The notes beneath the pieces are model-generated. The model had not been told where the DNA came from and did no database searches. It worked only from the letters and a program-made list of their open reading frames with translations. DNA of 64,000 nucleotides from positions 1 through 64,000 of the forward strand of contig JAKSZP010000138.1 in the NCBI GenBank assembly GCA_022478985.1. Direction: 5' to 3'. Numbering within the stretch: position 1 is the first letter of the stretch; each line of letters starts with the position of its first letter. Below are positions 12,184-52,714 of the stretch, one piece after another. The stretch is from Massospora cicadina. Lineage: Eukaryota; Entomophthoromycota; Entomophthoromycetes; Entomophthorales; Entomophthoraceae. The position numbers were made by a program, and so were the translations under genes.

Positions 12184-14115
12184 GTTTTAGTTAACCAAGA
12201 TAAGCCAACCAGGAGATAGACATTACCAAACTAAAAACTTAGTCTAAAATAACGTAACTAATTGATTCAAACAAAATGCCCAAATGAGTGGTTGAATGAA
12301 TCACACCAAACAAAAATAACCAACCAGGTGGGCAGCGGAAAATGCTTATCCCTCCATGGCAGAAGGGGAGGGGGTTTGGGGGGCTCACTTCAGCAGCAGC
12401 TATCTCTTCCCAGAGTAGGGTGCGTGTCAAGCCAGATAGCAAGAGCGTTGGGGCATCGGCAGAATGTGGTTTAATATTACTGATAAATGGTACTTCCAAT
12501 TAATTGCCAAACATAAAAATGGCAGCAATATATTTGGCTAAAGCTTTTTTGGCTTTAATGCGGGCATATGGTAGTTTAATGAACGTTGCAATTTTGGTTC
12601 AGGTGATATTAGCTTTTGGATTTCGTGCTAAAGTTACCACGTTCTGGATAGCTTTGGTGACATTTTTGTGAAGTTGTTTTACGTTAATCTTACATTTTGG
12701 AGTATGAAATTGGGGATAACATGAGGTGGAAATCCTCCTGCAAGCGCTGCCACTGATTTAGTGGCAGCTTTTCAGAGGGGATGGCAATCTAGTGTGGCGG
12801 CTGCTTCTACTGCAAGCTGGTGATTGCTGTGGAATAGTTCAGCGTTTGGCTTTGAGGCATATAAACGAGGGGGGAATTCTGCATCCCATTTTGCATTGCA
12901 GAACCGGTCAACTTGCAGCAATGGTTCTTCGATGATATTACCTGAATCATCAATTTCATCCAAAAACTCCCATGGGTTCTGGCAAAATTGAATCGGGGAA
13001 TCGGCGTATGGTTGAGGATTGGTTGATTTATTTAACGTTGCATGGGAACAGACTGGGGTCTAATCCTGCACTTGATTGGAAGATTCATGCGTGGCACTGG
13101 GACACGGTGGAGGCTGATTTGTGGCTGCAAGTGCAGCTGTAGCAACAGGCTTTGTGGGAGGGGGAGGTAGGATTGTATCCTAAACCAGAATTGCCACTGG
13201 GTGGGCGGCAGATTGGTGGCCATCAGACAAACTATTAGCACCATTGGAAGCTACTAGATATGGGCACTTGCATTTTGAGTGGGATAACTTGAAACAGGAT
13301 GGACAAAAGTCCATCCACCCTCGACGCAGTCCCAGAATGGATGGTTGGGGGTCAGATGGGATAACTGCGCGAGGGGGAATTAATGGGGCAATTTTGTTCA
13401 TTTCAGGGCTGATTGTGGCATACGCCTGAGGCCCAGCGAGGCGTGTGGCCCATTTAAGACCACAAATAGCAAAATGGGGTTGGAGCCATAGGCTGCCAAA
13501 CCTTCCATCAGCTCCTGGTGGAGCACCTCAGGGGGAAGGTGGGTAGGCAAACCAGCAAACTGAACCACCAAGGTGGTGTCCGCTGGGAGCTGGGTGCATG
13601 TTGTTGGGATAGGTGTATCCTGGAAGATCAGGGGCACCGTTGCTGCAGTGGCAGCATCAGCTTCACAAGTGAAGCTGAGATTAAAATACCCCTTATAAGA
13701 ACAGAAGTCAATAAAACAGGCTGGTGTCATCACCGCCAGAGCCATTTTTGATGATGGCTTGGTCGTTGTATGGGAAAAGTTTCCCAAGTTTGACCCTAAG
13801 GCTGAAATGTATGTTGCTCCAAGGGAGCACCAGGGGGGCAGCGGGGCACACCTTGGGATCATGCAAGGTGGGCGATGAGATTCTTTGAAAGAACGAATTT
13901 TCCCATGGGTTTGGTATGACTGGGCAACCCAGTCCGAGAACGTTTTTCTGTTGGATGGAAAATGGCAGGTGGAGTTTTGCCACTTCCCCACACTGGGGCA
14001 GCTGGCGGGGAATACAATGACATCAGAGCAAAACTATGGCGGGCGATTAAGTTTTACTTTTTACTAATCATAAAAATTGCTATGAAAGTTACACTGAGCA
14101 GAAAGAGGATAAATT
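12184..14115 (-). mobile_element. element A, ORF1-only LINE-like retroelement
   Basis: A minus-strand element of about 1.9 kb, the same family as B (15795-17710) and C (20675-22616). It encodes one decayed ORF of about 500-550 residues. The N-terminal half contains TTLVVQFAGLPTHLPPEVLH and GLAAYGSNPI (near 13480-13570). A zinc knuckle CPSCFKLSHSKCKC (CX2CX4HX4C) follows at about 13265-13305, then a Gln/Pro-rich linker and a conserved C-terminal part with NHQLAVEAAATLDCHPL. There is no RT or endonuclease. The 5' end is CT-rich and the 3' end carries the motif shared with B, C and the LINE. A possible imperfect 14-bp target duplication (12170-12183 and 14116-14129, 11 of 14 matching) interrupts a chromovirus gag. 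Ends are less certain than for B and C. Confidence 0.78.
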
Positions 14116-14440
14116 CTTTGGTTTTATTTGTAAAAGGAAGTTTCTTATTTTTGATTTATCAAGTTTATTAAATATCTTTATGGAAGGCAAAACTACTTTG
14201 TGAAACTTCGCTAGTTTGATTTATACACTAATTACTGAGGCATAGGGGGCCTTGTTCTCCATGTAGTCTGCATACAACTTCTTGATGGTAGTATAATCTG
14301 AGGATCAAGACCCTCATTTTTCATATAGACCTGTTACAGAACTTGGGAATGTACCTTTGAAGTTCTCAGAACTTTTTGAATTCTTTTCGCATTGAATTAA
14401 TATCAAAGCCCATTCCTTTGCTGACAACTTTATCACTAAA
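14116..14440 (-). pseudogene. upstream part of the chromovirus gag or leader
   Basis: Continues the gag copy interrupted by element A. The DNA aligns with 30200-30420 and with 30990-31140, so it represents the 5' leader and N-terminal gag of the same chromovirus family. A minus-strand frame near 14366-14440 ends with NSMRKEFKKF. Too decayed for domain assignment. Confidence 0.55.
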
Positions 14441-14790
14441 TTTTGAATAATTCAAATTTTTTTGCAGAATCTGATTTGTCAGATACCATTTACAAGTGGC
14501 TTGTCCAGCTTCAGCCAATTGTGTCAGCATCTGTTTATTCAGAATGCCATTTACAAGGCTTTCTTTTATCATTAACCTTATTAGCGATATTAGATTTGGC
14601 AGCATCTGGTTGTCCTGAGTGCCATTTATGAGGAATTCCATTCTCATCGCTGTTTTTAGTAATATTTCATTTGGCAGCATCTTGTTGGGTAACGCGCAAT
14701 CTATGAGGATTTCCATCCTCATCATCATTTTTGGTAAATTTAGATTTTATGGCGTCTGATTTTCAAAAATGCCATTTTTAAAATCCTTGG
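14380..14790 (-). repeat. coding tandem repeat, 75-bp (25-residue) units
   Basis: At least five imperfect 75-bp units on the minus strand. In the frame with the most natural composition each unit resembles DENGIPHKWHSGQPDAAKSN; clear examples are NDDEDGNPHR, DENGIPHKWHSGQPDAAK and KWHSE with TDAD. An equivalent array lies at 40240-40650. Another frame of the same repeats is open over 14366-14728 because 75 is a multiple of three. I do not recognise the repeat. It lies in frame with, and downstream of, the chromodomain at 14880-15110, but also next to gag, so its parent ORF is uncertain. Confidence 0.75.
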
Positions 14791-14879
14791 CTATTGTACC
14801 CATCCACTTTGGCCCTGGTCTTTGCAATGGGTAAGATTAGGTATTTGTTAGTCAGAAAATTCCTCAGCCATTACACCAC

Positions 14880-15794
14880 TCTCCCATATGAGAGCCTCCT
14901 TTGGCCCCAGATCTCTCCACCTTCTGTGGGCAGTTGATGAAGTTATTATAGTTTTTAGGTGGACTCTTTCACTGTATATCCTAAACACTTAATTAGGTAT
15001 CAGTGCTTCCCTTAGGAGAACTTTATGTCTAGGGGTTTTCGCCACCTCAAACTCAACCTCATCTGGGTTGCCCAAGTGAACTGGCGCCAGCTTCTTGGGA
15101 AGAGGACTTTCAAACTTCTTAAGTTGTAAAACGTGCAGTACAGGATGCATGTGAGACCCCCATGGAAATCAAGTTTGTAGTTTACTTTATTTATTTGATA
15201 GGACCTTGTATGGGCTCAAGGTGATTAGTACAAGTTTCATGAATCTAGTGTGAACCAAGTAGTTCTTTGCATTAATCATTACCAAGTCTTCTTCTTTCAG
15301 CATCAAGTCCTCAGATTAATGAGCATCAGACTTATCTTATGAATCTCTACACAATCATTAAAATCACTAATAATGTTACCGTTTATTCTTCATCTAGGCT
15401 GCCAGGCTGTTTGCCACTGGGTTCAGACTTCTGGGTTAGTTTCCTACCATCTTAGGGTAAACTCATAGTTCACTATGGAGGGCGACATTCCCATAGATGA
15501 GTGCTTTAAATTATTGTAGATGAACTGGGCTAGTTTCAGTCAGTTGGTATGGCGTTAATGTTGGGAGTCATGTAGCACCACAGGTACTTCTCAAGAACTT
15601 GATTAATACAATTGGTTTAGCCATCAGGCTGTAGGTGGTAGTCTGATGATTTTCACAGTCTGATATAAATATTATCCAGTAGGTGTTGACAGAAATGCGA
15701 GATGGATTGTGGGCCTCTATCTGAAACTATCTCCTTGAGGAGGCCATAGTGGGAGAACACCCCATTCACAAATACTGACTGTGCCCTTTGCCAT
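14880..15794 (-). pseudogene. integrase C-terminal half with chromodomain
   Basis: On the minus strand the integrase core is visible at about 15600-15760: DRGPQSIS (second catalytic Asp region) and later YHLQPDG, the usual YHPQTDGQTE position with stops replacing Gln codons. Near the C-terminus a chromodomain reads DEVEFEVAKTPRHKVLLREA, then after a frameshift YLIKCLGYTVKEST, at about 15080-14930. Chromodomains bind methylated histone tails and steer integration to heterochromatin in related elements. Element B separates this part from the upstream integrase at 17711-18230. Multiple stops. Confidence 0.78.
15781..15794. repeat. left 14-bp target duplication of element B
   Basis: GTGCCCTTTGCCAT here matches GTGCCCTTTGCTAT at 17711-17724 with one mismatch. 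It marks the integration site of element B inside the integrase gene. Confidence 0.85.
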
Positions 15795-17710
15795 TTTATT
15801 TAACCAAGGTAAGCTGACCAGGGGACGGACATTACTGAACTAAAACTAAAAATCATAATAAAAAATAACAATTCAAACAAAACGCCCAAAATGGATGGAT
15901 CAATTGAATCATAACTAACAAAATATTAAACCAGGTGGGCAGCAAATACTGCTATCCCTCCATGGTGGATGGGGAGGGGGATCGGGGGGCTCATCTTTAG
16001 CCACATCCATCTCATCCCAGAGTAGGGTACGTGTTAAGGTAGATAATAAGGGTGTGGGGGCATTGGCGGCATGAGGTTTGAGATCCTTGATGACTGGAAC
16101 TTCTGGATAGTTACCAGCCATCATTATACCAACGATGTATCTAGCCAAAGCATCTTCAGCTTTTGAGGCGGGCATTTGAGAACTTAAATATTTGGTAATG
16201 TCGGTTTGGGTTATTTTTCTTTCAGATTACGTGCTACTGTTACCACGCTCTGGATGGCTTCAGTGACATTTTTGTGTAAAGTTTTCATGTTGATCTTACT
16301 TTGTTCTTTAAGATTTTTGGGGATGACGGGAGGTGGAATTCCTCCTGCAATCACAGCCACAGATTTGGGTGCAACTTTGCAAAGTGGACAGCAATCTGGT
16401 GTGGAGGCTGCTTCTACTGCAAGCTGGTGGTCGCTGTAGAATGGTTTGGTGTTAGGTTGTGGGACATATTTCAAAGGCGGGAAATTTGCATCCCATTCTG
16501 CATTACAGAGCCGCTCGACTTACAGCGTCAGTTTCTAAATGACGTTACCTGATTCAACAATTTTATCCAATAATTTCTCATGGACCTTAATTGAATTGGA
16601 TTGGGGAATCAGCGTATGGTTGAGGTTTTTTGATTCATTTGCAGATGCATGGAATAGAACTGGGATCCAATCTGATGTTTGGTTTGATGGATTATTTATG
16701 GCATTGGGGCAAGGTGGATGCTGATTGGTGGCTGTAGGTGCGGCTGCAGCATCAGGCATTGGAGGAGGGGAAGTTAGGATTTTACCCCATGTTGGAGTTG
16801 GTGAGGGGTGGGCAGCAGATTGGTGGGTGTTGGGAAAACTTTTGGCATTGGTGGAAGTTTCTGAGTATGGGCATTTGCATTTTGAGTTGTCTAACTCAAA
16901 ACAGGATGGACAGTCGTCCATCCGCCCTCAACGCGGGCCCAGAATGGATGGTTGGGGGCAGATGGGATGGTGGCATGAGGGGGAATTGCCAAAGAAATTT
17001 TTGTAAATTCAGGGCTGATTGTGGCATATGCCCAAGGCTCAGTGAGGCGTGTGGCCCCTTTTGGGACCACAAATTGTAAGATGGGGTTGGCGCAGTAGGC
17101 TGCCAAACCTTCCATCAGCACCTAGTGGAGCACTTCAGGGGGAGGTGGGTGGGCAAACCAGCGAACTGAACCACCAAGGTGGTGTCCATTGGGAGCCAGG
17201 TCCAAGTTGTTGGGAGGGGAATATTGCTAAAAATTAATGGCACCGTTGCTGCAGTGGCTGCATCAGCTTCACAGGGAAGCCAAGATCAAAGTATTCCTTA
17301 TAGGGGCGGAAGTCAATAAAACAGGATGTTGTCTTCACTGCCTGAGCCATTTCGATAATGGCTCGGTTGTTGTAGGGGAAGAATTTACCATATTTGACCC
17401 TAAGGCTGAAATGCATGTTGCTCCAGGGGAGCACCAGGGGGCATTGAGGTACCGCTTGGGTTCAGGTTAGATGGACATCAAGATCCTTGGGAGGAACAAA
17501 TCGTCCCAGGGTTTGGAATGACTGGGCGAGCCAGTCTGAGCGCGTTTTCCTGTCAGATGGAAAATGGGGGAGTTTTGCTGCTGCCCCACACTGGGACAGT
17601 TGGCGGGGGATCCAATGACATCAGAGCAAGACTTCAGTGTGTGATTAAGTGTTTGCTTTTAATTTACTGAGTTAATTTGCTCGGAAAGTTATGCTGAGAA
17701 GAGAGAGAAG
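15795..17710 (-). mobile_element. element B, ORF1-only LINE-like retroelement
   Basis: A 1916-bp minus-strand element flanked by a 14-bp target duplication. Its 5' end is CTTCTCTCTCTTCTCAGC; its 3' end has the CCCCTGGTCAGCTTACC motif and a short TTAAATAAA tail. One decayed ORF runs from about 17600 to 15940. Visible parts in order: an N-terminal region with LGKxFPYN-like and RPYKxYFDLxF-like segments, the GLAAYCANPI segment near 17080-17120, the zinc knuckle CPSCFELDNSKCKC at about 16860-16910, a Pro/Asn/Ser-rich linker, and the C-terminal HQLAVEAASTPDCCPLC followed by IAGGIPPPVIP (16440-16300) and ALARYIVGIMMAGNYPEVP. No polymerase domain. It probably moved using a LINE RT in trans. Confidence 0.85.
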
Positions 17711-18230
17711 GTGCCCTTTGCTATAATCTTTGAAGTACATGGAAAGAATTTGTCATATATGTTAGTTGTTCACCACCATCATGACAGCATCATAACCCCT
17801 AAGTTTTGGAAGTCTTATTAGTAATCTACGCTTAGTGAGGACCAGGTCATCTCTGCAATCTGGAGGGCTTTAGTTTCTCAAAGGACTCCTTTCTGCCATG
17901 TTTAATTCAGGCGCAGTTTATGCATTTTGAGATGTACTTCCTCACTGTAACTAGACATACCATCCACTAGTAGCTTTATTACAGGGGTTCTATCATTTTA
18001 TCCATCCCTGGGTGTCCTTCCAAGGGCTGGTTATGGAAAGCACTTGTTAATATACTGACTGGATTAATAGCAAATTAGATATCTATTTATATTGAACTAT
18101 AAGTTGTGGCTTCTTTTTAAATACTAATGGTTCCCAACCAAGAGGGGGTCCTCCATTCATCTTTGTATGCTAGGTGCCAAACATAGGGATTATTATATAA
18201 TAATAAAATTCTTGACATGGTGTCTCAGCG
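17711..18230 (-). pseudogene. integrase N-terminal half
   Basis: Minus-strand continuation of the integrase split by element B. The HHCC zinc region is readable at about 18060-17890 with EGHPGMDKMIE and KYISKCINCA. The start of the catalytic core follows as LPKLRGYDAVMMVVNNL at about 17830-17780. Upstream, a linker near 18160 may contain the DGLLYF-type segment. Beyond about 18230 homology is lost. Stops occur throughout. Confidence 0.75.
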
Positions 18231-18529
18231 TTGGCCTAAGCATCCATATATGAGGAGGAGGGTTTGGGGGTTCTTGTCCAGTGGGTGCTTCAGGGGGTGA
18301 GCAAAGGCGGAAAGAAAGAGGGTTGAATTTTCAGAGGCATGGGGAAGAAGAAAATAGATATGTTGGTTCTCCTCATCAATGAGTCCAGTAGTGTGCATCA
18401 CCTCAACAAATTAAGAAAGCTGATGTTCAGTGAAAAAGATGAGTTTAGGCATGCAATTGAAGAACTTGATACGCTGGTAGGTCTGAGATTAGTTGAGGTC
18501 AAGAAATAGAAGATTTTGCCGCATCAATG
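18231..18529. other. unassigned segment between integrase and LTR
   Basis: About 300 bp with G-rich plus-strand sequence near 18250-18300. It faintly resembles the proline-rich C-terminal coding end of elements A and B (read on the minus strand), but the match is too weak to assign. Confidence 0.3.
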
Positions 18530-18574
18530 TGTCAGATTCTGGAGGATGACTCAAAAATAGACTTTTGACAACCA

Positions 18575-18795
18575 TCGCTCAGGCCAGTTATCCTTACAAT
18601 CAACTTAGGCCAATTCTCTTTTAACAACTTGGGTCAAATATCCGTACTTAACTCAGTCTGATTAACCTTTTAACAGCAGGATGATTACACTTACAATCAA
18701 CTTTGGTCTATAACCTTTTAATAACTCTGGCCAAATTTCCTTTTATTAACTTAGGATAGTTACCTTTTCAACAACTTGGCAATTGGTCATGATTA
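18575..18795. repeat. degenerate short tandem repeat, about 25-28 bp units
   Basis: About seven loosely similar units, each an AACTTGG-like core followed by a CCTTTTAAC-like end, with variable spacing. They sit near the start of the LTR-like repeat. The compact LTR at 24241-25099 has only a trace of this pattern, so local expansion is likely. Confidence 0.55.
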
Positions 18796-19051
18796 TTTGT
18801 GTGCAATATTAACTTTATATCAAGAAATCGTCCAGGGATTGAAACCCATACATTTCTAAAAACCCATGGACCAATAACGACATTAAGATTGCCCCTTGAA
18901 ATATCACAATCAGTTTTCCACCCTATGGCGAATTTTGTACATCAACGCTCATAATCAGAATGATAGCATTTGATCATGGATAGTCCAAATAGGAGTCCTA
19001 GTGCTATTGAGAATCCTGTCGTTAGCCTAATTAAAAGGATGTCACTAAGCT

Positions 19052-20135
19052 TGCTTCAAATTAGATCATTTGAAGCGATGTGCCCCAAAGCTTCCTCCTC
19101 CACTGCTTCCCCCATTCCTCCTTCTGGCGTCAGGCTGGCTGCTGTCTAGTCCAAAATTTCTGAGTGGGGCACTATCCTCCTGCCCCCACCTCAGCTAATT
19201 CTGCCGCTGCTTCCAAAGCAGCAGCCAACCAAAATTTAAATTTTTCTAAAAAATTTGTTAAAATTACGGAACCTTGAGCTGGTGGCTGAGACATTTTCAG
19301 CTGTTCTGCTGTGGTCAACTGTTTGCAGCAAAACAGGTTACACCACTGCACCAACACCAGTGGCTGGCTCAGCATCAGCCGAGTCAAATCCATTTGAGTG
19401 CCTCAAATGGATTGTTGATAGTGACTGGCCATATAATGTCAAGCCATATTTCGCTTTGGAGGAATTTTTTGTAAATCTTCCTGATTTGAGTCCCCACCAT
19501 TTTCAATCTATGAACAGTTTACTAGCTATAAAAATATAAAAAAATGGTGGTAGAAGCAGCAGCTGCTCCAGCCAACACCCTCCTCCGCCAACATCTCCAT
19601 GGAGCGATGAAACCCCTTGTTGAGGGTATTCTTATCCCAAATTTCCCCCATTATTTAGATGAGGATGCAAAATAAGATATTGAGGAGCTCACTTTTGGAG
19701 TGAGCTGCACTTGCATCGAAATGGTAAAAACTTCTCTGTTTGACTCCAATTATCCCAAGCCCACCAGCGCATCAATTCCTTCACTTGTGTGCCTGCTCTA
19801 ATCACTTTTTCTAAGCATCAACTTGCTCAATATATTAAGAAGATTGACACCGCCAGCCTCATTAATGAAGAAAACCCACAATTATACCTCCTTATTCCAC
19901 ATGTCACGGATGCCCAAACCATATGATGTCCGCCATGGTTCGCCAGCTAAAGCAGGCGCCAGACAAAAGTTTCTTAAATCTTTCTCACCTTTCTGATATG
20001 GCTTCTTAGGCTAAAAATTAGGGGCTATATTAAGAATTTTTTATTTACAATAATACCTTTTTTTGGCTCATTTGCAAATAAAGATGTGTGGCAGCTCCCC
20101 TTTTGGTTTGGGCACCACTAGTGCTAAAAAAAGAA
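19052..20135 (+). mobile_element. 5'-truncated ORF insertion related to element D
   Basis: This plus-strand insertion splits the LTR. A possible target duplication of up to 17 bp (AAGGATGTCACTAAGCT at 19035-19051 and a copy with one mismatch at 20134-20150) flanks it, although LTR-internal repeats blur this. The decayed ORF contains ASAESNPFECLKWIVDSDWP and FALEEFFVNLPDLSP (19380-19500), later HQLAQYIKKIDTASLINEEN. The same protein is encoded on the minus strand in element D, for example ESNPFKAIEWI near 23380. No RT or endonuclease is present. The function is not recognised. The 3' end at about 20125 is a short A-run. Confidence 0.6.
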
Positions 20136-20149
20136 GGATGTCACAAAGC

Positions 20150-20460
20150 TCAAAGTAAAAGCAAATTTCCTAATTATTGTATTTTGTCAGCTGTATGACA
20201 AACCTTGATTGCACTTGCAAATGGACAGCCCAAATGAAAGTACCTAATGCTATCAAGAGTTTTTAATGTCCCAATTAGGATACTCACGAAGCTGAATCAA
20301 TTCAAATTTCCTCCAGTAATCATATTTCATCATCTGTATGACAAATCTTAATATCACTTGCACATGGACAGCCCAAATGGGAGTATCTAGTGCTATCAAG
20401 AGGCCTTCCAATGTCCTTATTAGGGTTTATCATCTAGTTTATGTCGATGCAAATTTTCCC
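20150..20460 (+). repeat. tandem repeat, about 141-147 bp units in the LTR
   Basis: AAATTTCC-type unit starts at 20163, 20304 and 20451 give periods of 141 and 147 bp. Each of the first two units repeats the CTGTATGACAAA, CACTTGCA and GGACAGCCCAAAT blocks. A related partial unit lies at 18960-19050 before the insertion. The compact LTR relative has one unit, so the array is an expansion. Confidence 0.75.
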
Positions 20461-20660
20461 AGAAGTTGTATTTTTTCTGCTTTAAGATGAGACTCAAAAT
20501 TTACTGGCCTTATGACAATTTTGCACATTCAAGTTGCATTTTGTTTTACCTAAAACCTTACAGATTTTGGGAGTATTTTTCTACCAATATTCCTAGTAAA
20601 AGGTCATGGTTGTATCAGTTCAAGGGCCAAACTGAGGTGGAAAATAATATCTGTGGAAAT

Positions 20661-20674
20661 TGCATGCTCAGAGT
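20661..20674. repeat. left 14-bp target duplication of element C
   Basis: TGCATGCTCAGAGT matches TGTATGCTCAAAGT at 22617-22630 with two transition differences. It marks the insertion site of element C in the LTR. Confidence 0.82.
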
Positions 20675-22616
20675 CTCTCTTTTCTCTCAGCATAACTTTC
20701 CAAGAAAAATTACACAAATCAATAAAGCAAATCATAATCGCCCATAGTAGTTTTGCTCCAATGTCCTGGATTCTCCACCGGCTGCTCCAGTGTGGGGCAG
20801 TGGCAAAGCTCCCCCACCATTTTCTGTCCAGCAGGAAAACGCGCTTGGACTAGCTCACCCAGTCATTCCAAACCCATGGGATGATTCGTTCCTCCCAAGG
20901 ATCTTGACGTCCACCTTGCTCATACCCAAGTGGTACCTTGCTGCCATCTGGTACTCCCCCAGAGCAACATGCACTATGGCCTAAGGGTCGAATATGTAAA
21001 ACTCTTCCCATACCATGACCAAGCCATTACTATAATGGCACAGATGGTAATGACATCCGCTGGAATCATAGATTTCCGCCCTTATAAGGGGTATTTTGAT
21101 CTCAGCTTCACTTGTGAAGCTGACACTGCCACTGCAGCAACCGTGCCCCTGGTATTCCAGGGCACCCCTCTTCCCAGAACTTGGACCCAGTTCCCAGTGG
21201 ACACCACTTTGGTGGTCCAGTTTGCTGGTCTGCCCACCCACCTCCCCCTGAAGTGCTCCACCAGGAGCTGATGGATCGTTTGGCAGCCTATGGCTCCAAC
21301 CCCATCTTTATAATTTGTGGTCTCAAATGGGGCCACGCGACTCACTGGGATTCAGGCATATGCCACAATCAGCCCTGAATTTAGTAAAATCGCCATGTCG
21401 ATTCCCCCTCACACTGTTATTCCTTCAGCGCCTGACCATCCATTTTGGGCCCACATCGAGGGCAGGCGGACAATATTTCCATCATGTTTTGAGTTGGACC
21501 ACTCAAAATGCAAGTGCCCCTCATTAGCCACTTCCAATGGATTGGACTCATCCGCCAAGCTTCAATCCTCCAATCACCCCATACAAGTTCTGGCATGAGG
21601 CACAATCCTACCTCACCCTCCCCCAAAACCAGAAGCTACAGCTGCACCTGCAGCCACCAATCAGTCTCCTCCTCGCCCCAATGCCACACATGATTACTCT
21701 AATCAAGCATCAGAGTAGATCCCAGTTCAACTCCATGCTTCCTCCAAGAAATCAACCAAAATCTCAACTGTACGCCGATTCCCCAATTCAATTCAACCAA
21801 AACCCATGGGAGTTATTGGCTGAAATTGACAAATTAGGTAAGCTCATTAAAGAACCATCTCTGAAAATTGAGCGTCTTGTTAATGCAGAATGGGATGCCA
21901 AATAACCCCTTGACTATATACCCCACAGCCAAATGCTGAATCATTTTGCATGATCACCAGCTTGCAGTTGAAGCATCTGCAACACCAGATTATCATCCCC
22001 TTTGTAAAGCTGTCGCAAAATCAGTGGCGATGCTCACAGGAGGAATTCCACCTCCTGTTATCCTGAAAGTCTTACTCAAAAGAGTAAAAACAATGCAACA
22101 GTTACACAAAAATGTAAATGATGCTATCCAGAACGTTGTAGCTTTAGCACGTAATCCAAAAGCTAATATTACCTGAACCAAAATCGCCATGTTTGTTAAG
22201 CTCCCAGACGCCCACATTAAAGCTAAAAAAGGCTTGAGCAAAATATATTAGTGCCATATATCTAGCTGGCAATTTCCATGAAATACCAATTATTGACAAT
22301 ATTAAACCACATACTGCTGATGCCCCAACGCCCTTACTGTCTGCCTTTCATACTCTATTATGTGTGGAAGAAGCTGCTGCCAAAGATGAGCCCCCCAATC
22401 TCCCCTCCCCTTCTGCCATGGAGGGATAGGCGATTTTCGCTGCCCAGCTGGTTGGTTGTTTTTTTTTTTTTCAAAGTGTTTCACACAATCGCTCATTTGG
22501 GTATTTTGTCTGAACCAATTAGTTAAGTTAGTTTTTTAGTTTTAGTTTTAGTTTTAGTTTTGTAATATCCGTCTCCTGGTTGGCTTACTTCAAATAAATA
22601 GCTAAATAAAGAAAAT
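20675..22616 (+). mobile_element. element C, ORF1-only LINE-like retroelement
   Basis: A 1942-bp plus-strand element with a 14-bp target duplication. It starts CTCTCTTTTCTCTCAGC and ends in an AAATAAA-rich tail after repeated TTTTAG units and the CTCCTGGTTGGCTTAC motif. The decayed ORF (about 20760-22440) reads, across frameshifts: PPPFSVQQENALGLAHPVIP, LRVEYVKLFPYHDQAI, DFRPYKGYFDLSFTCEADTA (21070-21130), DTTLVVQFAGLPTHLP (21200-21250), RLAAYGSNPI, then PSCFELDHSKCKC, a knuckle whose first Cys is replaced by Phe. The C-terminal part has HQLAVEASATPDYHPLC and GGIPPPVI (21955-22060). No polymerase. This copy best defines both ends of the family. Confidence 0.87.
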
Positions 22617-22795
22617 GTATGCTCAAAGTTTGGCCAGTAGATCCCAAGAGGTATATACTGGCGCATGGCCTAATTGAATCTATCATCAAATTAGATCATC
22701 AGAATAAGATTACACTTAAATAATCATATAAACAATAATTTATTTAATTCTCTTTATCATCTTTTTATTAAGGGTAGTTCCTATTGAGAGTGTCG

Positions 22796-29199: not shown

Positions 29200-31222
29200 C
29201 CTGAGCTAATCTGAATGCCCCTCCACCTATGTCATACTGAGACTTTCTCATCAAGGGTGGCTCCAAAGCGAGTGGCAGCCATGTCAATATGGATGTCAGT
29301 GGGGAGTTTCTGGAAGAACATCTGTGCGATTGGGTAAAAGGTGACTTTGGCTGCCTTGGCTAATGGGTGGCAGACACAGGGGTATCCAATGACCATCATA
29401 TTCCCTTGCATGAGGGCCAGGATGGAGGACCAAGCTGCATCTTGGGAGTCATTAGGTTTGACCACTCTCTCAAACAATCAAAGGTAATATCCAGGTTAGG
29501 AGGAAGAGCTGAAGGGTTTTATTACAGCTTCATGAACCAGTCAGACAGGTTTCTGGATAGGACTGTCACTACTTGAGCATCCTGGAGTGACACAGTGTTA
29601 GCTTTTACTGAGGTGGTGGCTAATTAGACTTGAAAATTTATATAAGAGAAGGTTGCATGCAGTGTAGTTAGCTCCCTAAGGAGTGAGGGCATGTCAGAAT
29701 TATGTTGAGGGAAGCTCAAGATAGGAGTGAAGTTGGACATTCCCGCAAAGGGAAGGAAATGGGTGGCTTCTCTCTTGAAGAAAAGGAGAGAGAAGATGAC
29801 CATCAGAAACATGGTTGGGTGTTCATGCCACGCAGACAAGGCTCGTTCTGAATTATTATCCACCATTTCTAGAAAGCGATACATCATTTTAAAAGAGCTT
29901 CTAATGTAATGGATGGGGCCCCTGAACACTGCTACAAAGCAGTTAGGCAAGAAAGCCTAGGTAAGTTCCCACAAGCAGGGCAATTCTGCTCTTGTGATAT
30001 CCCTAATCTGTGTGTTTGAGTAACTCTTGATGATGTAATTATGGACTATAGGGAGGATGATACAGTCGCCAATAAAGAGGGACTGCCATCTGGAAAGCGC
30101 ATACAAGTATACAATTGCTTTGTCAAAGTCTGAAGTGTATTGCATTAAAAGTTTCTTTTAAGGTTTCTTAATAAATTATTTTTAAATCTTAACATTTATT
30201 TCTGAGTTTATCAAGTTTATTGCATAATTATAGAAGACAAAGCTTTTTTGTGCAACTTTTCCAGTTTAAAAGTTATACTTCAATTACTGAAAAGAGCTGG
30301 TCTCGTTCTCCATGGATTCTGCGGACAGCTTCTAAACAGTAGGTGTTGAGCAGTGAATAGATGTTTTGAAGTCAGGTCCTTTGAAGCTAAACACTTATTA
30401 GGCATTAGTAACGCCATAAATATCATATAGGAGACTTTCTCTCTCTAAAGCAAAACACCAGAAGGAAATATCATTGTCAGGGCAAATCTCTTGACAGCTT
30501 AGCTGAAAAAGGGAAAATCTATTTTTTATCATGCAAAAATCTTTAGATAATGTAAATAGGAAAAATCAGCCTAAGAGTAAGAAAATCCTTTTTCTTAATT
30601 TCATCCTAATCATTTAATGGTTCTAGGTAAAGAAGAGAGTAAGCGAGATAGGGATAAATCTCCTCAGTTTGTTGGAATGGGGTTGTTGAGGTGATTTCTT
30701 CTAAGAAATTTTAGGGAAATTTTGATTGTGTAATTGGGTATTTGGTCAATGCAATAGAATTCATCATTATGGTAATTTTAGGCCTTTGGCCCAACAGGCA
30801 TCATCTGATGACATAATAACTTAATATTGAGAAATTCGGTCCTTTCAGCCTTGCAACACGCAATGTTAATATATAATATGAAGTAAATCTAGTAGGAGGT
30901 GATTAAAATGGTAAGCCATTTAGAAAACCAAAGCTGAGGCTTCCCTCACATTGGGGCGAAGCCCAACAGTAGGTATATTCTGAGTACCTAGATCCTCTAT
31001 TTTCTCATCTAGGCCTGTTCCAGAACTTGGGATGAATACCTTTGCATTTGTCATAGATTTTTCCATATGTGTTATTTTGCTACAAATTGTTTCAAATCTT
31101 TTTTCTTTAACAACCTTATATCTAAGTTTTAAACTAATAGTCAGCTCACCTGCTTTAACTCGCTTAACATGTGAGACATAGATACTGCTCAGGGGATCTA
31201 CTACATGCAGATTAGGCACCAT
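29200..31222 (-). pseudogene. gag of the split chromovirus
   Basis: Frames at 31222-30920, 30145-29957, 29950-29624 and 29477-29232 lie between the 5' LTR and protease. The first starts MVPNLHVVDPLSSIYVSHVK and includes a basic stretch RYKVVKEKRFE. The third includes MMYRFLEMVDNNSERALSAW; the last ends ATRFGATLDEKVSV. No zinc knuckle was found. The segment 30150-30900 is poorly coding. A second copy of parts of this region lies at 11850-12183 and 14116-14440. Assignment is by position and by duplication, not by family motif. Confidence 0.62.
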
Positions 31223-40234: not shown

Positions 40235-40650
40235 TTAATTAAAACGGTATTGGTTGCATTTGATTCGCAAGCTTGCCATCTCTGATAGGCTTGTCAAGTC
40301 TCATCTGAAGTGACAACATCTTGTTGTTCATAATGCCATTTGCAAGGGTTTCCTTTATCATTAACCTTTTTATCAATAATGGATTTGGCAGCATCTTGTT
40401 GGCCAAAGCGCTATTTACATTGATTTCCATCCTAAGCGATCTTTAGTAATATTGAATTTGGAGGCATCTGGTTGGCTAGAGCACCATTCATGAAGTTTTC
40501 CATCCTCGTAACCTCTTTTAGTAATATTGGATTTGGCAGCATCTGGTTGGCCAGAGTACCAATTACAAGGATTTCCATCCTCATCACTATTCTTAGTAAA
40601 ATTGGATTTTGAGGCATCTGATTTGCCAGAATGCTATTTTTGAGATCTCG
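40235..40650 (-). repeat. second array of the 25-residue coding repeat
   Basis: Minus-strand 75-bp units equivalent to those at 14380-14790. In the coherent frame: SDASKSNFTKNSDEDGNP, NWYSGQPDAAKSNITK, EWCSSQPDASKFNITK, then after a frameshift NDKGNPCKWHYEQQD. Five or six units. An alternative open frame through 40665-40432 is a product of the period being a multiple of three. The array ends abruptly near 40234 at the Chr-5 leader. Confidence 0.75.
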
Positions 40651-40990
40651 TGTGATAACAACCATCCCTTTTAGCCCTGGGCTTTACAAAGGGAAAGATT
40701 AAGGCTATGCGGCGGTTAGGAAAAACCTTGACCTTTTCTAGTAATAGGCTTTTTTGTACCTTTGCAGGCCGTGGGGTCCTTGTATATAAGTAACAGTAGA
40801 GCTCTTTAGTTAAATCTCTCTTTCTCAAAACTTTGTATGTGTTGTGGTGGCGGTTGACCACTTTAATATAGGGCCCTACTTTATCCTCTGATCAAAAAAA
40901 CTCTTCATCAGATAGACCGGCTTCATTTACCAAATTCTTTTATTACATTGGCTTTCTCAAGAAAGTAGTGGTTGATATAAGACTCTTAAT
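40650..40990 (-). pseudogene. ORF upstream of the 25-residue repeats
   Basis: A minus-strand frame of about 110 codons reads NEAGLSDEEFF, stop, then SEDKVGPYIKVVNRHHNTYK and TRTPRPAKVQKSLLLEKVKV, running into the repeats. The segment RIALIFPFVKPRAKRDG aligns with YLILPIAKTRAKVDG before the repeats at 14 kb. GPY followed by TYKV slightly resembles the C-terminal SH3-like end of integrases, but this is weak. I do not recognise the protein. Confidence 0.45.
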
Positions 40991-41778: not shown

Positions 41779-42931
41779 TGTAAGTCCAGGGGAAAATCCC
41801 CTGTGTGTCAATTGGGCCCTCTTCCCGTTTCCAAGTAAAAAGGCTCTGAAAAGGGTGGCTGTACCCCTCGTCACCCAGGGTGACCTCGCCCATGTGGTAG
41901 ATGAGCGCTGGGTAACAGCTTTCCCTCTTCAGATCCCTCCCCCAGTGCCCACACTCACCTCTCCCAAACTTGTACGTCTGATTGGGAAAGTTTGCACCAA
42001 AGTTGCCAAAATGAAGTCGATCAGTCTAAAAATGAGTGGAAACAAGCCCAAAGATCGGAATCCACTTAGCTGAAAAGGAATGAAGATTAATTCATTGGCC
42101 AGAATCGCCAATGGTTTCAATTCAGCCAACCCCAAAATAGTCAAAATTAACCCACTCCTAAAATCATAAGGGATGATTACCGATGTGCAGGTAACAGCAT
42201 CAGACAACATTGGTGATAGTGTGAAGCTCCCTTCCAGCAAATCAGGTGTTGCAGCCGATGCAACGCTTTTGATTGAACAAATGGCTGAGAGACTGGGCAT
42301 GGGCGGGTTGTGCATCCTGAACCCGTTCCCAACCAATGGGGACCGCCCCTATGTGGGGTGGCCTTGGGGGATTCCCATTGCTCATCAGGCTAAATGCTGT
42401 CACGCCAACTGCAAGAAATGTAGTCAAGTCTCAGTTTGGGCGTCTGAGGTCAAACTGACAGTGACTATGCCTGGCTCCAAAATCCTTCAATGTCAGTTTC
42501 CAATGAACTTATCTGCCCCCATTCATAAATATTTGCTGGTTAGGTGAACTTGAGGGACCTGATTTCAGCTTGTTTCCTTATCAATTGCCCACGATTTAAT
42601 TAGTTGCATTGCACTGAGGAAATTTGTTGGTCAATTTTTCTTCCTCAATTTTTCATTAAAAACCTTTCCCCAAAAATTAGTTTTTATGTTAATAAATTGC
42701 TTTTTCCGCCAACACTCACACACCCCTCAGGGTTAACGGCCATATTTGTCTGGTATTTTATTATGTGTCTGTACAAGATTCTGGCTCACCCGCAGGTATT
42801 GGTGAAACTCCTTTTCAGATTCATATCCATCGCACCAGCAGCAAAGCCTTTGGCATTATAGTTTGCCATTTGGATGCTCTGGCATCTAGGCTGTCAGGCC
42901 ATTCTAATTCTATCTTGCTGCTTGCCTGACA
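41779..42931 (+). repeat. 5' LTR of Chr-6
   Basis: Starts TGTAAGTCCAGG and ends GCCTGACA. It aligns full length with 46698-47850, but divergence is uneven: 42245-42431 is almost identical while 41960-42110 differs at many positions. The conserved part encodes a frame with GLCILNPFPTNGDRPYVGWP and CCHANCKKC. Retroviral-type LTRs rarely encode protein, so this may be chance. Confidence 0.88.
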
Positions 42932-46697: not shown

Positions 46698-47850
46698 TGT
46701 AAATCCAGGGGAACGTCCTGTGTGTCAATTAAGCCTCTCTTTCCATTTCTGAGTAAAAAGGCTCCGAATAGGGTGGCTGTACCCCTCGTCACCCAGGGCG
46801 ACCTCACCCACATGGTAGATGAGTGCTGGGTAGCAGCTTTCCCTCTTTGGATCCCTCCCCTGGTGCCCACACTCACCCTCATTTGAGCTTGTACGTCTGA
46901 TTTGGGAAATTTACACCAAAATTGCCAAAATGAAGTCAATCAGTCTAAAAACAAGTGGAAATGAGACCAATGATTGAGATACACTTGATCAAAAAGGAAT
47001 GAAGATTGATAAATCAGCCAAAATTGCCAATGGTTTCAATTCAGCCAACCCCAAAATAGTCAAAATTAACCCTTTCCCAAAATTGTCAGGGATGATCCCT
47101 GACGTGCAGGTAGCAGCATCAGACAACATTGGTGATATTGTGAAGCTCCTTCCAGCAAATCAAGTGTTGCAGCCGATGCAACGCTTTTGATTGAACAAAT
47201 GGCTAAGAGACTGGGCATGAGCGGGTTGTGCATCCTGAACCCGTTCCCAACCAATGGGGACCGCCCCTATGTGGGGTGGCCTTGGGGGATTCCCATTGCT
47301 CATCAGGCTAAATGCTGTCACGCCAACTGCAAGAAATGTAGTCAAGTTGTGGTTTGGGTGTTCGTGGTCAAACTAACAGTGACTCAGTCTGCCGCCTAAT
47401 CCTTTGATGTCAGTTCCCAATGAACTTATATGCCCCCATTCTTAGGTATTTGCTGGTTAGGTGAACTTGAGGGACCTGATTTCAGCTTGTTTCCCTATCA
47501 ATTGACCACTATTTAATTAGTTGCATTGCACTGAGGAAATTGTTGGTCAATTTTTCTTCCTATATTTTCCATTAAAAAACCTTTCCCCAAAAATTAGTTT
47601 TTATGTTGAAAATCCACACCTTTTCCGCCAACACTCACACACCCCTCAGAGCTAATGGCCATATTTGTCTGGTATTTTATTATGTGTCTGTACGAGATTC
47701 TGGCTCACCCGCAGGTATTGGTGAAACTCCTTTCCAGCATCATATCCATCGCACCAGCAGCAGTGCCTTTGGCATTATGGTTTGCCATAAAGATGCTCTG
47801 GCATCTAGGCTGTCAGGCTGGTCTAATTCTATCTTGCTTCTTGCCTGAAA
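46698..47850 (+). repeat. 3' LTR of Chr-6
   Basis: Same length as the 5' LTR. It ends GCCTGAAA where the 5' copy ends GCCTGACA. A one-base deletion near 47148 breaks the internal frame shared with the 5' LTR. The target duplication GTTTC follows at 47851. Confidence 0.88.
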
Positions 47851-48624: not shown

Positions 48625-48638
48625 CACAAAGCAATAAT
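48625..48638. repeat. left 14-bp target duplication of the LINE
   Basis: CACAAAGCAATAAT occurs here and at 53883-53896 without a mismatch. The empty-site sequence is seen in the right LTR at about 63373-63386. Confidence 0.92.
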
Positions 48639-48650
48639 TTTTTATTTTTT

Positions 48651-49425
48651 AATCCTATTTCGGGAAGGATGACCAGGGGATTACACTTCCAACAAGACAC
48701 TAAACAATGAAATAAACTCAGCGATATTAGGGCACCCCAGAGAATCAAACGCTATCTACTGTTGCCAGCGGGAACTCCAAGAGAAGGAAGGGGGCTACGT
48801 GTGTAGGGGCTTGCGCCACTATTGAACACATATGTAGGAAGGGGTCTGAAATGATGAATCAATTGGGAACCAGGATGAGACCATCTGGAAGCGATGGGGT
48901 GGGAGGTACCCAAACATCCACACTTGAAAGTGATCCCTAAGATGCTACTGAAACCAGCTTAGAGCTTCCTGGAGGGTGGGAGTGGAGCCTGAGATAGCAT
49001 CCAAGACAATCGTATGGATAGTCCACATAGCAATTGCAACTACTAAGGCATGGAGGGAAGGTGATAGAGGGGAAACCATGGACAAAGCATATATTTCCTG
49101 AGACAGGCTGAAGGGCTGTGCCTGATCCTGGCGATTTAGACTCTGTACCTCACGCCATATCGCTTAAGGGAATGCACTCTTCCAGACGGTGAACCAAAGT
49201 TCCATAATGGCCACACACAATGCAAGATGAGTGCAAAGCATTAGAGCGTCGGCAGTATGGTATACCCATCTCAAGCAGCACCACACATGGAAACAAATAT
49301 GCTGCTGCATAAGGGTGGTGGGCGTACTTTCATATGGCTTTCTGGGTATCTAGGGAGTAGTGGATGTCCACCATGTCCAGGTAGTCCACCATAACTATGT
49401 TAGGACCTCATGGGAATATTTTCGT
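48651..49425 (-). pseudogene. ORF2 C-terminal zinc motif and 3' UTR of the LINE
   Basis: The frame at about 49223-49173 reads CIVCGHYGTLVHRLEEC, a CX2CX7HX4C pattern like the zinc finger found after RT in many LINEs. Beyond it, coding ends and a 3' UTR of about 400 bp follows. TCCCCTGGTCATCC at about 48666-48680 is shared with the 3' ends of A-C. A-rich tail at 48639-48650. Confidence 0.65.
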
Positions 49426-51014
49426 TCAGAATTTGTAGCCTTGTACTTCCTGGGTGAACTGAGGAGTAGGGCGCCCCCTCTGGGTGGTGTGCCCACATAT
49501 GTGAATTCTCCACTCAGCACTCCTCATGGAGAGGAGGATCCTTTTGGAGTGGGGTGACGTCCCATGTGGTCCAGCAGCAGAAGGATGTGAGGCGAGATAT
49601 TTTAACAGAGAGTAGGGGTGTGTAGGATTGCTGAGGCCCAGGGCGTGGGAGAAGTTGGAGTGGGCCACGCGGGACCAGTGCTGGGCTGAGATCGTAGGGT
49701 TGGTGACGGCAGCGATCCAGGTGCCAAGGACATTGGCAGCATGGGCCTCAAAGTTGAGCAGGCCCATACCACCACTATGGCGAGGGCCAAACATGACGTC
49801 CAGGTGCACCGGTGGTGTGCAGACTAACCAAAGCCACTCTTGCAGAAGAGTATATAATGACTTGAAGAAACAAGGGGAAAAAGAGATGGCGTGGGCCCCA
49901 AACCAAAATTTAGAAAGGAGCATAAAGTTGGTTAGCACTACCATGCCTGTAAGGAAGGTCTGGCAGGCTTTGAGGGAAGCATGCGTTTCGTAATGTTGTC
50001 TAGGATATGCCTTTTCATCATTGTTGAGGCGTATTCTCCTGCCTCCAGCCACACCCCCAAATGGCGGACAGGGCCAACGGTGGGGCTTGGCACAAAGGGG
50101 AGCACAAGCGGGATGGTGTGGGGTGGGTAGGGCAAGTGATCCCGTGAGCAAGTTGATGAAGCAGGAAGAAAACGGGGCACTGGGGCCCAGCGGGATTGAT
50201 ACCAACTAAGGAGACAATTTTGATTTTGGAGGCGTTAAGTGAAGCATTACTTACCCTGGAGTAAACCTGGATAGTAGGTTCAAGAGCTCATGCACAATGA
50301 TTGTTAGACACCCCAACCACACAATCATCAGCAAACGCCAACATCTTGACTGGTGCTTGGCCTTGCACATGACACCAGTAAGGCGGGCATTCACATTTCA
50401 AAGAAGTGGGTCAAGGCTGAATTTATACAAGAGTGGGCTAAGAGGGTACCCTTGGCGTAGGCCCCTTTGAGGGCGGACTACATCCGTGAGGAAGCCAAAC
50501 CATGCACAGCCATTGTGGCGGATTCTGTGAGCAACATCACCTAATTAATGAAACGAAAGGGGAGGTGGAACTTGTGGAGGCAGGCTCTAAGGTAATCCCA
50601 ATGACTCTATCATAAGCCTTCTGCTGGTCTAAAAAAAGTGCTCCAGAAGCCATGGATTGAAAGACGTTGGCTATGGTGTGAATGTTGTACTAAACCGACC
50701 TTTTTTGGAACAAAACCAAATTGTTCAGGGGAAATGAAAGCAGAGGCAACTACCCCTAGGCGGTTTGCTAGGATTTTAGTAAAAGTTTTTGTGTCTGTGT
50801 TAGTGAGTGAAATGGGGCGCCAGTTGGCCAAGTCCAGCTTATCCCATTTTTGTACAACTTTATCGTGAAGGTCTCTTGCCCTCCAGGAAGGAGGCGCATT
50901 TCCATAAGGCATTGGTTCAGAGAAGCAAGCAGCAAGGAGGAAAAAATTTGAAATACTTCCTATAGAACTCATAAGGGATGCCGTATGGACCTGGACATTT
51001 TCTTTACAGTGCAC
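49426..51014 (-). pseudogene. LINE ORF2, reverse transcriptase
   Basis: The frame at 51014-50610 has NWRPISLTNTDTKTFTKILA and NRLGVVASAFISPEQFGFVP, RT blocks 1-2 of non-LTR elements. After a frameshift, DQQKAYDRV appears near 50610-50630. The catalytic block MLAFADDCVVGVSN at about 50300-50345 keeps both aspartates. The long frame 50205-49426 (259 codons) is the post-RT connection, with SGGMGLLNFEAHAANVLGTW matching the GGLGL...F motif common to LINE proteins. Stops near 50480-50550 and 50290 inactivate it. It would copy LINE RNA at a nicked target. Confidence 0.88.
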
Positions 51015-51639
51015 CGTGAATGGCAGACCAAAGTTTGTCCCAAGTATACAAATTCATCAACTCTGGAAAGCAGGAAATGGTGCGGATATGTGCACTTAAA
51101 AGAAAATTGTCCACTTCAGCTGGCAGAACTGGATTGGATCAATATAATTTGGAGTAATAGTTGTGTATTTCGATCACCACTTCAGCTGGAATATCTGCAA
51201 CGGAGTGGTCTGGCCTTTGCACCTGTGTGTAGGCCAAGCTCTGTCGCAGTGCAAAGAATTTTTGAAAAAAGTAAGCAGAACACATATTGCCTATTGTAAT
51301 ATGCTTTACTTTATACTGAACAAAAACCCGGTTCTTGTGTTGTCTTACCAGTGCGTTGAGGCAAGCAGACACTTCCACCCACTTGCGACCCCAAGATGGG
51401 CTTTATCCTGCAGCAAGACGTTAGACCCCAGGTGGTCCACTTCTGCCAGAGTGTGCAAAATGACTTCTGAGGCAGCTCACGAGCGATGTGAGGAGAGGTG
51501 GCGATCCTGGCAGATTGTGTTTGCTTTGAAGGTTGACCAGTTGGAGATTGGGTCTGCACATAATGTTGCGGTAAACTCTGGAGCTGAGGTCATGGTTTTC
51601 ACACATGAGGAAAACCTTGGCGACACAATCTTAGTGGGG

Positions 51640-52400
51640 TGGAGTTTGTACTACTTTAGCACCTGGGCTGCTGGATTGGAAAAATGGAAGGAAACTGATA
51701 CCATTCTGTGGTCAGATAAATCAATTTTCATCATGATAAAGTGGGAAATTTGGGAATAAAATTTCAACAGAGCGAGAATAAGGTCAATGCGGGTCATGGA
51801 CTTTAGCTGGCCGTTGTGCACATGGGGATGAGACATGTTAGTGAGTTTTGGTGCATACCATGGCAGAGTATCAAAAAATCCTAGGGTGGCTTTTATAACT
51901 CGAAATTCAACGTTCCCCTGTTGGGATGTAGGTGACAAGGGCCAGAAGTCTGTGGTTGGGTTTGTCCAGTAGTTCATGTCACCAATAACAAATGGGTGGG
52001 GGATAGCAGAAGGAAATTGATGGCCAAGAAGAGTTCCTGACAATATTGTGTACAGGTTGGGGCGTAAATGTTAATGATATTGTGCACTTAGTCATCCCAT
52101 GAAAAGGTGGCTACAAGGACATAGTCGTCGAGGTACAATTTTGATAAAATAAATTTAAAACTATGGTTCACTTGAACAAGCATCCCACAGTGCGTAGACC
52201 AAAATTAAAGGGAAGGGAGGAGCATGGTTGCCCATGCTTCCTCTGCACCACATGGACAGTGGGATTCCTGAATGGCCAGGATGTCCATTGGTAAATTATT
52301 TTTCAAATAATCAGTTTCCTAGCCTGTGATGGTGAGGCCTTGAGTCCAGCGATGTTCAACGTCCCTAAAGTAAAGGCTCCCCCCATCACACCTTAGGTGC
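51640..52400 (-). pseudogene. LINE ORF2, APE-type endonuclease
   Basis: An early block MDILAIQES (about 52290-52260) is the metal-binding LQE motif. The frame 52043-51651 contains HPFVIGDMNYWTNP, the GDFN block, and ends RIDLILALLK with SDHRMVSVSFHF at about 51720-51690, the catalytic Asp-His block. The order is correct for an endonuclease of the exonuclease-endonuclease-phosphatase fold, which nicks target DNA. Between 51640 and 51015 the linker to RT is decayed. Two stops lie between the first and second blocks. Confidence 0.85.
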
Positions 52401-52714
52401 GAGGGGAAAGGCACCCATGCCCTTCAGCCTTCTCATTCTCAGCACATCGCTGTTTGGAAGCGCGGGTATTCTGTGCTATGGAGTATGGTTCAGTATGGGA
52501 AGCTTTAGCTGTGGGGTTCATGTTGACTTTTGCCTTCTGCTTTTTCCCCACTGTGGGACGAATTTTTCACGTTGTGTGCACTTACAATGCTCCCTTGCAT
52601 GAAGGTGGAATTCCAGCAGGAATATTGTTGAGCAACTCAGTTTTAATCGATGCTTGGTAGCATTGATCAGAAGAAACTGACTCACCATCAGGTCTTCAGT
52701 TTGGGTGGCCCAAT

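Follow-up and report, generated by a model that had tools for sequence, protein, structure and literature searches.

Among the retroelements known to us that encode ORF1 alone are only the mammalian HAL1s, which use poly(A); they are mobilised by the ORF2 of their parent LINE, and the poly(A) 3′ end is their hallmark. Passages on HAL1 (half-L1) in PMC5753468 describe it as a non-autonomous derivative encoding only the ORF1 protein, and L1 uses poly(A) according to PMC4176376. The same paper names stringent-type LINE/SINE pairs in the CR1, Tad1 and RTE clades.

Here, we describe a family of 1.9-kb elements, termed half-LINEs, in Massospora cicadina. Like HAL1, the half-LINE is non-autonomous, with ORF1 only and no endonuclease (EN) or RT, and the likeness to HAL1 proposed in the initial annotation survived testing. 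It differs from HAL1 in being fungal, in having an ORF1 that combines a CCHC knuckle with an additional C-terminal region under selection, and in ending in a hairpin and a short TAAA-rich tail rather than poly(A). As in the stringent-type pairs, the non-autonomous partner has the 3′ tail of the LINE with a stem-loop; however, here the stem varies while the loop is kept, and the partner is 1.9 kb long and protein-coding. A fungal ORF1-only element whose structured, covarying 3′ hairpin also occurs in autonomous LINEs makes it possible to address directly the benefit that an ORF1 protein brings to a parasite dependent on borrowed ORF2, and the half-LINE and LINE hairpins together form a system in which to ask whether hairpin and helper co-evolve. 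No description of the half-LINE family of Massospora was found in the open-licence literature searched. The host is a cicada-killing fungus, and its genome has been reported to consist of 92% repeats (PMC9584336).

Full-length copies and their insertion sites

The window, that is, the whole stretch of 64,000 nucleotides analysed, contains three full-length copies, A (about 12184-14108, reverse strand), B (15795-17710, reverse strand) and C (20675-22615, forward strand). These align end to end, with identities of 76.4% (C/A), 75.8% (B/A) and 73.0% (C/B), in agreement with the initial annotation of units of about 1.9 kb with common 5′ and 3′ ends. Elsewhere in the window, sequences related to the flanks run without a break across the A site (at 29912-30342, with about 71% identity) and likewise across the C site (at 24706-24106, reverse, with 63-69%), and the 1.9-kb unit is therefore what was inserted. 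The 14-bp target site duplications (TSDs) claimed for B and C, with one or two mismatches, held when their coordinates were checked. Specifically, those of B lie at 15781-15794 (3′ side) and 17711-17724 (5′ side; GTGCCCTTTGCCAT versus GTGCCCTTTGCTAT, 1 mismatch), and those of C at 20661-20674 (5′ side) and 22616-22629 (3′ side; TGCATGCTCAGAGT versus TGTATGCTCAAAGT, 2 mismatches). Copy A had no TSD above control when its flanks were compared against mismatched-flank controls. All three thus represent, at full length, one and the same retroposed 1.9-kb unit.

The wider sample comprised 41 copies read, 38 of them genomic in addition to A, B and C. TSDs reached at least the 95% point of mismatched-flank controls in 37 of these (31 at 99%) and were mostly 14-17 bp, the same size as those of the LINE, for which the same kind of test gave 10/11. 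Lengths fell between 1911 and 1985 nt in 39/41 copies, the remaining two being 2221 and 2659 nt. EN and RT pieces of two query LINEs had no match inside any of the 41, the sole match in this test coming from the flank of L070 and not from a half-LINE interior. Additionally, among 20 copies fetched with the last 167 nt of the half-LINE, 19 reached the 5′ end and none contained EN or RT, and no LINE coding was found between the ends of A, B and C. The claim that these elements encode neither endonuclease nor RT was thus upheld in both the 41 and the 20 copies, which lack the EN and RT that an autonomous LINE carries within the element. Nor is the half-LINE a SINE, short and non-coding, being 1.9 kb with a selected ORF.

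The half-LINE protein and its selection

A single frame of approximately 550-567 codons fills the element in A, B and C. Over 549 codons, these copies carry 6, 6 and 7 in-frame stops, respectively, plus frameshifts, so the reading that each encodes one ORF is true of the ancestor but not of A, B and C themselves. The ORF is broken in all 41 copies (3-12 in-frame stops each). The four codons richest in stops are, across the 41, mixtures of TGA, CAA and mostly CGA; they are decayed CGA codons.

The frame nevertheless retained a frame-specific signature of constraint. Among A, B and C, dN/dS was 0.31-0.40, as opposed to 0.77-1.20 in shifted frames. Across the 820 pairs of the 41 copies, it fell with rising dS from 0.609 through 0.503 and 0.407 to 0.344, versus 0.68-0.89 in shifted frames. 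The C-terminal region gave 0.356 at dS>0.3, and CpG-free codons gave 0.314 at dS>0.45. The half-LINE ORF evolved under purifying selection, and the proposal that the family is non-autonomous yet has a protein of its own is supported by these ratios together with the absence of EN and RT. The initial annotation had proposed asking whether the ORF is open in a consensus; in the majority form it is interrupted by three stops and a single frame break.

The N-terminal half of the ORF is homologous to ORF1 of a LINE in the same window (hhalign probability 94.6, E 6.8e-8), in an alignment of 146 columns that extends through the knuckle. From this comparison, the N-terminal part appears to be an RRM-like region followed by a CCHC knuckle. 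The zinc knuckle attributed to each copy is intact, as CX2CX4HX4C, in A (13264-13305, reverse strand; CPSCFKLSHSKCKC), but in translation B has His replaced by Asn (16871-16912, reverse strand; CPSCFELDNSKCKC) and C has its first Cys replaced by Phe. Pfam scans of pieces of the ORF returned nothing above cut-off, neither RRM nor knuckle, and the pieces in the window that cover the RRM region carry breaks inside it. No convincing hit came from PDB sequence searches with half-LINE profiles, the best E values being 0.027 and 0.66. The last ~230 residues had no counterpart in the ORF1 of the window LINE, just as the initial annotation had stated. We infer that the half-LINE protein binds RNA.

The window LINE and a shared 3′ hairpin

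The candidate helper is a full-length LINE of 5.2 kb (48639-53882, reverse strand) with ORF1, EN and RT, flanked by exact 14-bp TSDs at 48625-48638 (3′ side) and 53883-53896 (5′ side) and with an empty site at 63372-63386. Its ORF1 region (52718-53863, reverse strand) has one in-frame stop, and family copies are full length at 82-86%. One of these, L070, also has ORF1 and gave an RVT_1 match at E 9.7e-15, and the best PDB matches of the RT piece were LINE-1 ORF2 chains, a similarity rather than a phylogeny. Like the half-LINE, the window LINE has an RRM-like and CCHC-bearing ORF1 and TSDs of the same size, and its family has the 3′ hairpin. It differs in possessing EN and RT, in an ORF1 only 23-25% identical to that of the half-LINE, in lacking the C-terminal region, and in its 5′ end, which showed no likeness to that of the half-LINE beyond shuffles.

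The half-LINE 3′ end consists of a 29-nt terminal hairpin followed by a short TAAA-rich tail. The hairpin lies at 12199-12227 in A and 15808-15836 in B (both reverse strand), and, partly decayed, at 22561-22589 in C (forward strand). It is common to the family of the window LINE, although its core was lost in the window copy itself. Between half-LINE and window-type LINE, all four majority differences in the 29 nt form two compensatory base pairs, an arrangement reached by 80 of 200,000 random placements. Comparison of the shared 3′ end scored 56, whereas 5000 shuffles reached at most 29. The covariation score of the hairpin exceeded 500/500 shuffles, but the number of pairs changed on both sides (three) was reached in 194/500; the pair counts exclude L030 and the window LINE, in which no hairpin core was obtained. 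Of four hairpins that were folded, one failed to adopt the common structure. A second LINE (L022), of a type known from one 3′ end of ~460 nt, has 39/43 nt of hairpin and tail identical to copy B. Half-LINE and LINEs therefore have in common a 3′ tail with a stem-loop, as stringent-type partners do. With regard to autonomous elements having the same ends as the half-LINE, the 3′ end is shared with two LINEs, but the window LINE departs at its 5′ end.

Mobilisation and alternative explanations

We consider it probable (roughly 0.8) that the half-LINE is a HAL1-like, ORF1-only non-LTR retrotransposon, non-autonomous and mobilised in trans via the shared 3′ hairpin. Its interpretation as an ORF1-only half-LINE was borne out by empty sites, TSDs, lack of EN and RT, and a selected ORF, and it apparently relies for its copying on the machinery of larger retroelements, through the terminal RNA hairpin that it has in common with them. 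Under this explanation, the half-LINE RNA would have encoded a single protein, made up of a LINE-ORF1-like N-terminal part and the C-terminal region absent from the window LINE, that probably covers, in cis, the RNA from which it was translated. The ORF2 protein of autonomous LINEs in the same genome would probably supply nicking and target-primed reverse transcription in trans. This protein may recognise the shared terminal hairpin and TAAA-rich tail, as suggested by the computed likeness and covariation and by the stringent-type LINEs treated in PMC4176376. Insertion would then leave duplications of mostly 14-17 bp, as that of the LINE does. A counterpoint is that every copy read was broken, with no working protein among the 41. 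Also counting against this explanation are the unlike 5′ ends of LINE and half-LINE, the lost hairpin core of the window LINE copy, the folded hairpin that departed from the common structure, the 194/500 shuffles, the Pfam scans without RRM or knuckle, the single 3′ end that represents the second LINE, and the few half-type hairpins with a C-like 19-mer upstream (below).

The strongest competitor concerns origin, not the working of the element: the C-terminal region would belong to the ORF1 of an L022-type LINE, and the half-LINE would be that LINE minus ORF2. We regard this as somewhat unlikely, yet a serious contender, given that the L022 LINE, known from its 3′ end alone, ends in nearly the hairpin and tail of copy B, and that L1 gave rise to HAL1s several times according to passages of PMC5753468. 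However, the internal-deletion reading fails for the window LINE family as direct parent, on account of its 5′ end, its divergent ORF1 and the missing C-terminal region; it may still hold for the L022 type. Moreover, both ends are common to divergent copies with a selected ORF, and any deletion that formed the half-LINE is therefore old.

The trans-mobilised, ORF1-only reading may also be set against a two-component system, in which the half-LINE gives ORF1 protein in trans to ORF1-less LINEs sharing the hairpin and receives their ORF2 protein. The common hairpin, the selected ORF and the existence of an ORF2-only stringent-type LINE, ZfL2-2 (PMC4176376), would suit such an exchange, but a LINE without ORF1 was not encountered, ORF1 being present in both the window LINE and L070, and we think it improbable. 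A multicopy host gene, or processed copies of one, would likewise account for an ORF under selection; we deem this very improbable, because the copies have both ends in common, UTRs included, as well as TSDs and empty sites, one 5′ 19-mer has 1342 exact matches genome-wide, and 41/41 copies are broken. Chance similarity of decayed repeats with an artefactual ORF, to which the universally broken copies and the interrupted majority form might be ascribed, is scarcely credible in view of the decayed CGA codons and the frame-specific dN/dS.

Other hairpin-bearing loci

Among the matches listed, a C-like 5′ 19-mer was located about 1.7 kb upstream in 3 of 67 half-type hairpins, and most half-type hairpins are thus on elements not read. 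A broader and speculative picture, to which we give little credence, is that a single 3′ hairpin, diverging through compensatory substitutions, marks out a group of elements mobilised by the same route in this 1.5-Gb genome. The group would include two or more types of autonomous LINE, an old ORF1-only superfamily with a protein domain of its own that is known to date from Massospora alone, and another family in which no coding sequence is recognised; the ORF1-only elements might even represent one part of a split retrotransposon, with ORF2 moving as a separate element. As candidate LINEs, two loci were rejected: L068, with the half-LINE 3′ end, had no LINE coding upstream, and the reverse-strand matches of L062 to half-LINE proteins were the half-LINE itself. 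The 3′ ends of L068 and L067 are identical, so that the 60 half-LINE 3′ ends include one duplicate row, and the two may be one insertion.

The inserted unit and its target duplications

The half-LINEs are retroposed units without ORF2 that carry an ORF under selection and a 3′ hairpin, with compensated pairs, in common with the window LINE family. The three window copies, A (12184-14108, minus), B (15795-17710, minus), and C (20675-22615, plus), were mutually alike over their full length (73-76%). Flank-related repeats elsewhere in the window span both the A site and the C site without a break, which identifies the 1.9-kb unit as the insertion. The genome searched comprised 1.47 Gb in 16,968 contigs (published size 1.488 Gb); GC of the window was 41.6%, and 41.1% is given for the species in the available text of the genome announcement (PMC9584336). 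Using C as query returned 42 matches among 12,250 first-look candidates, 40 of which were scored, and 38 of 39 places outside the window were read, a partial match on C3442 being left out; with A, B, and C these form a 41-copy sample picked by likeness to C. The last 167 nt of C returned 40 places, and 20 of the 36 new ones were read. All five protein matches to a piece of copy A came from Massospora cicadina.

Both 14-bp duplications reported at B and C in the initial annotation were present. Duplications reached the 95% point of mismatched flanks in 37 of 41 copies and the 99% point in 31, mostly at 14-17 bp, and none exceeded this control at the genomic loci L027, L030, and L033 or at window A (4/41). 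The window LINE (48639-53882, minus) has an exact 14-bp target duplication and an empty site at 63372-63386, and LINE duplications, 10 of 11 above control, match those of half-LINEs in size.

The absence of endonuclease (EN) and RT, likewise claimed from A, B, and C, extended to the whole sample: EN/RT pieces of the window LINE and of L070, a copy of its family, had no match inside any of the 41 copies at E 1e-3, the single match in that search coming from a flank of L070. Length was 1911-1985 nt in 39 of 41 copies, while L025 (2221 nt) and L046 (2659 nt) were longer through inserts. Among the 20 copies found by the 3′-end query, 19 extended to 19 nt or less from the 5′ end (a 1.2-kb insertion interrupts one of these) and L068 was cut at position 1594; LINE coding occurred in three of these 20 loci, always outside the half-LINE.

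Selection on the ORF and its decay

In frame, dN/dS of the A/B/C pairs was 0.395, 0.311, and 0.316, versus 0.77-1.20 in shifted frames, and the three copies held 6, 6, and 7 in-frame stops. Purifying selection, a possibility raised in the initial annotation, was evident across the 820 pairs of 41 copies, where dN/dS fell from 0.609 (dS<0.2) to 0.344 (dS>0.45) versus 0.68-0.89, without the fall, in shifted frames; the pairs are non-independent, and weight is placed on the trend and its frame dependence rather than on a p-value. The fall persisted over 408 CpG-free codons (0.575 to 0.314), and the C-terminal region by itself gave 0.356 at dS>0.3 (384 pairs). Every copy was broken, with 3-12 stops each. 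The four most stop-rich codons were mixtures of TGA, CAA, and mostly CGA (codon 193: 15 TGA, 12 CGA, and 9 CAA among 41 copies), which is the pattern of decayed CpG in CGA. Strong CpG-type C-to-T decay, converting CGA codons to TGA or CAA, was seen in the half-LINE repeats of the 41 copies.

The majority form holds one frame break, at a C run that lacks one or two bases in 31 of the 41 copies. Where the run was interrupted inside, frame was kept (3/3 copies), and where its edge was changed, two of five copies were in frame and three out of frame. The break is compatible with, though not proof of, homopolymer under-calling in a nanopore (R9.4.1) assembly.

Two regions of the encoded protein

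A region that starts at a stretch which we read from its pattern as RRM-like, and which a Pfam scan did not call, and that extends to and includes the CX2CX4HX4C knuckle aligned with window LINE ORF1 (hhalign probability 94.6, E 6.8e-8, 146 columns; a shorter alignment, 91.8 and 7.5e-7). Single-sequence tblastn between half-LINE and LINE was weak, at 8.7e-5 for the best of five queries (tiny database) and 5e-4 for another. The C-terminal ~230 residues, as the initial annotation had it, are missing from the window LINE: they matched neither its ORF1 (E 0.31) nor LINE DNA (best 0.010). They had no Pfam match and no convincing PDB match, and a search of limited sensitivity in a collection of 5.8 billion proteins gave one match, from Massospora. 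A distant, 5′-truncated relative adjoining the half-LINE copy in L007 (L007:215-950, minus) has retained the C-terminal region (32-42% identical, tblastn E as low as 3e-22) and terminates in the half-LINE hairpin with one mismatch.

The nearest known kind is HAL1, judging from the available text of PMC5753468. We found no published description of the half-LINE family in the open-licence literature. LINE families are not described in the accessible part of the Massospora genome announcement (PMC9584336); an eLife paper, in the portion available, notes LINE expansion in M. cicadina, and the terms 'non-autonomous', 'ORF1', and 'Tad1' are absent from its main text.

A compensated 3′ hairpin in common with LINEs

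Full-length 5.24-kb copies of the window LINE family were 82-86% alike to the window LINE, and ten 3′ ends from the best-scoring copies were compared. Over the last ~80 nt, half-LINE and LINE majority forms had a likeness score of 56 (best of 5000 shuffles, 29). Four positions of the 29-nt hairpin block separate the two forms and together constitute two base pairs (U-A versus A-U, and A-U versus G-C); four randomly placed changes did equally well in 80 of 200,000 trials. The five outer pairs were kept in 40-59 of 60 half-LINE and 6-10 of 10 LINE ends, the outermost being least kept. Across 20 typed rows, covariation scored higher than in any of 500 shuffles or any slid version, but the number of pairs changed on both sides (three) was equalled or exceeded in 194 of 500 shuffles. 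Folding alone was modest (z -1.97, -1.98, -1.35, and +0.26, the first two sequences being composites), and the hairpin core is lost in the window's own LINE copy.

By analogy with ZfL2 LINEs, a LINE ORF2 protein would recognise the hairpin and then copy the half-LINE RNA. In ZfL2 LINEs, according to the available text of PMC4176376, recognition is general for the stem and specific for the loop, a rule that predicts the kept loop and compensated stem of half-LINEs.

Among 340 kb searched, hairpins outside the half-LINE copies terminated other elements, with LINE-type stems in L008, L030, L039, L063, and L070 and half-type stems in L022, L007, and L051. The first four are further LINEs, 75-81% alike to that of the window; their stem is GGAAG/CUUCC and their loop a variant (CCCAUGGU). 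A second LINE family is represented by a 3′ end in L022 (1-460), where a coding stretch with 43% identity to the final part of the L070 coding sequence (E 2.7e-27) directly precedes a half-LINE-type hairpin and then a TCGGTTAAATAAAT tail. Hairpin and tail were identical to copy B at 39 of 43 nt, to A at 35, to C at 31, and to the window-type LINE end L075 at 30. The initial annotation proposed a search for autonomous elements with half-LINE ends; this LINE, covered over its last ~460 nt, has nearly the half-LINE 3′ hairpin and tail. Another repeat family (L051:1883; L064:3475, minus; also L025, L027, and L007; ~120-290 nt alike), in which no coding sequence was recognised, terminates in the half-LINE hairpin in L051; the L064 relative is decayed (286 nt at 74%; five hairpin mismatches).

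Genome-wide, a pattern spanning both stems occurred exactly 2794 times (reversed-pattern control, 0), with low sensitivity (6/41, 3/20, and 1/10), and the 100 places listed divided into 67 with half-type stems, 28 with LINE-type stems, and 5 mixed. The C-like 5′ 19-mer lay ~1.7 kb upstream at only 3 of the 67 half-type places among those listed, so most half-type hairpins are on other subfamilies or elements, against a simple picture. From its 1342 genome-wide occurrences and its presence in 21/41 and 11/20 copies, we infer very roughly 2500 C-like copies.

Other repeats in the window included 1.15-kb direct repeats (41779-42929 and 46698-47848, 88.7% alike), a possible LTR pair, with similar pairs at 4033-4831/6756-7554 (89%) and 33239-34117/39289-40165 (80%), and related arrays with a unit of roughly 75 nt at 14498-14839 and 40288-40701.
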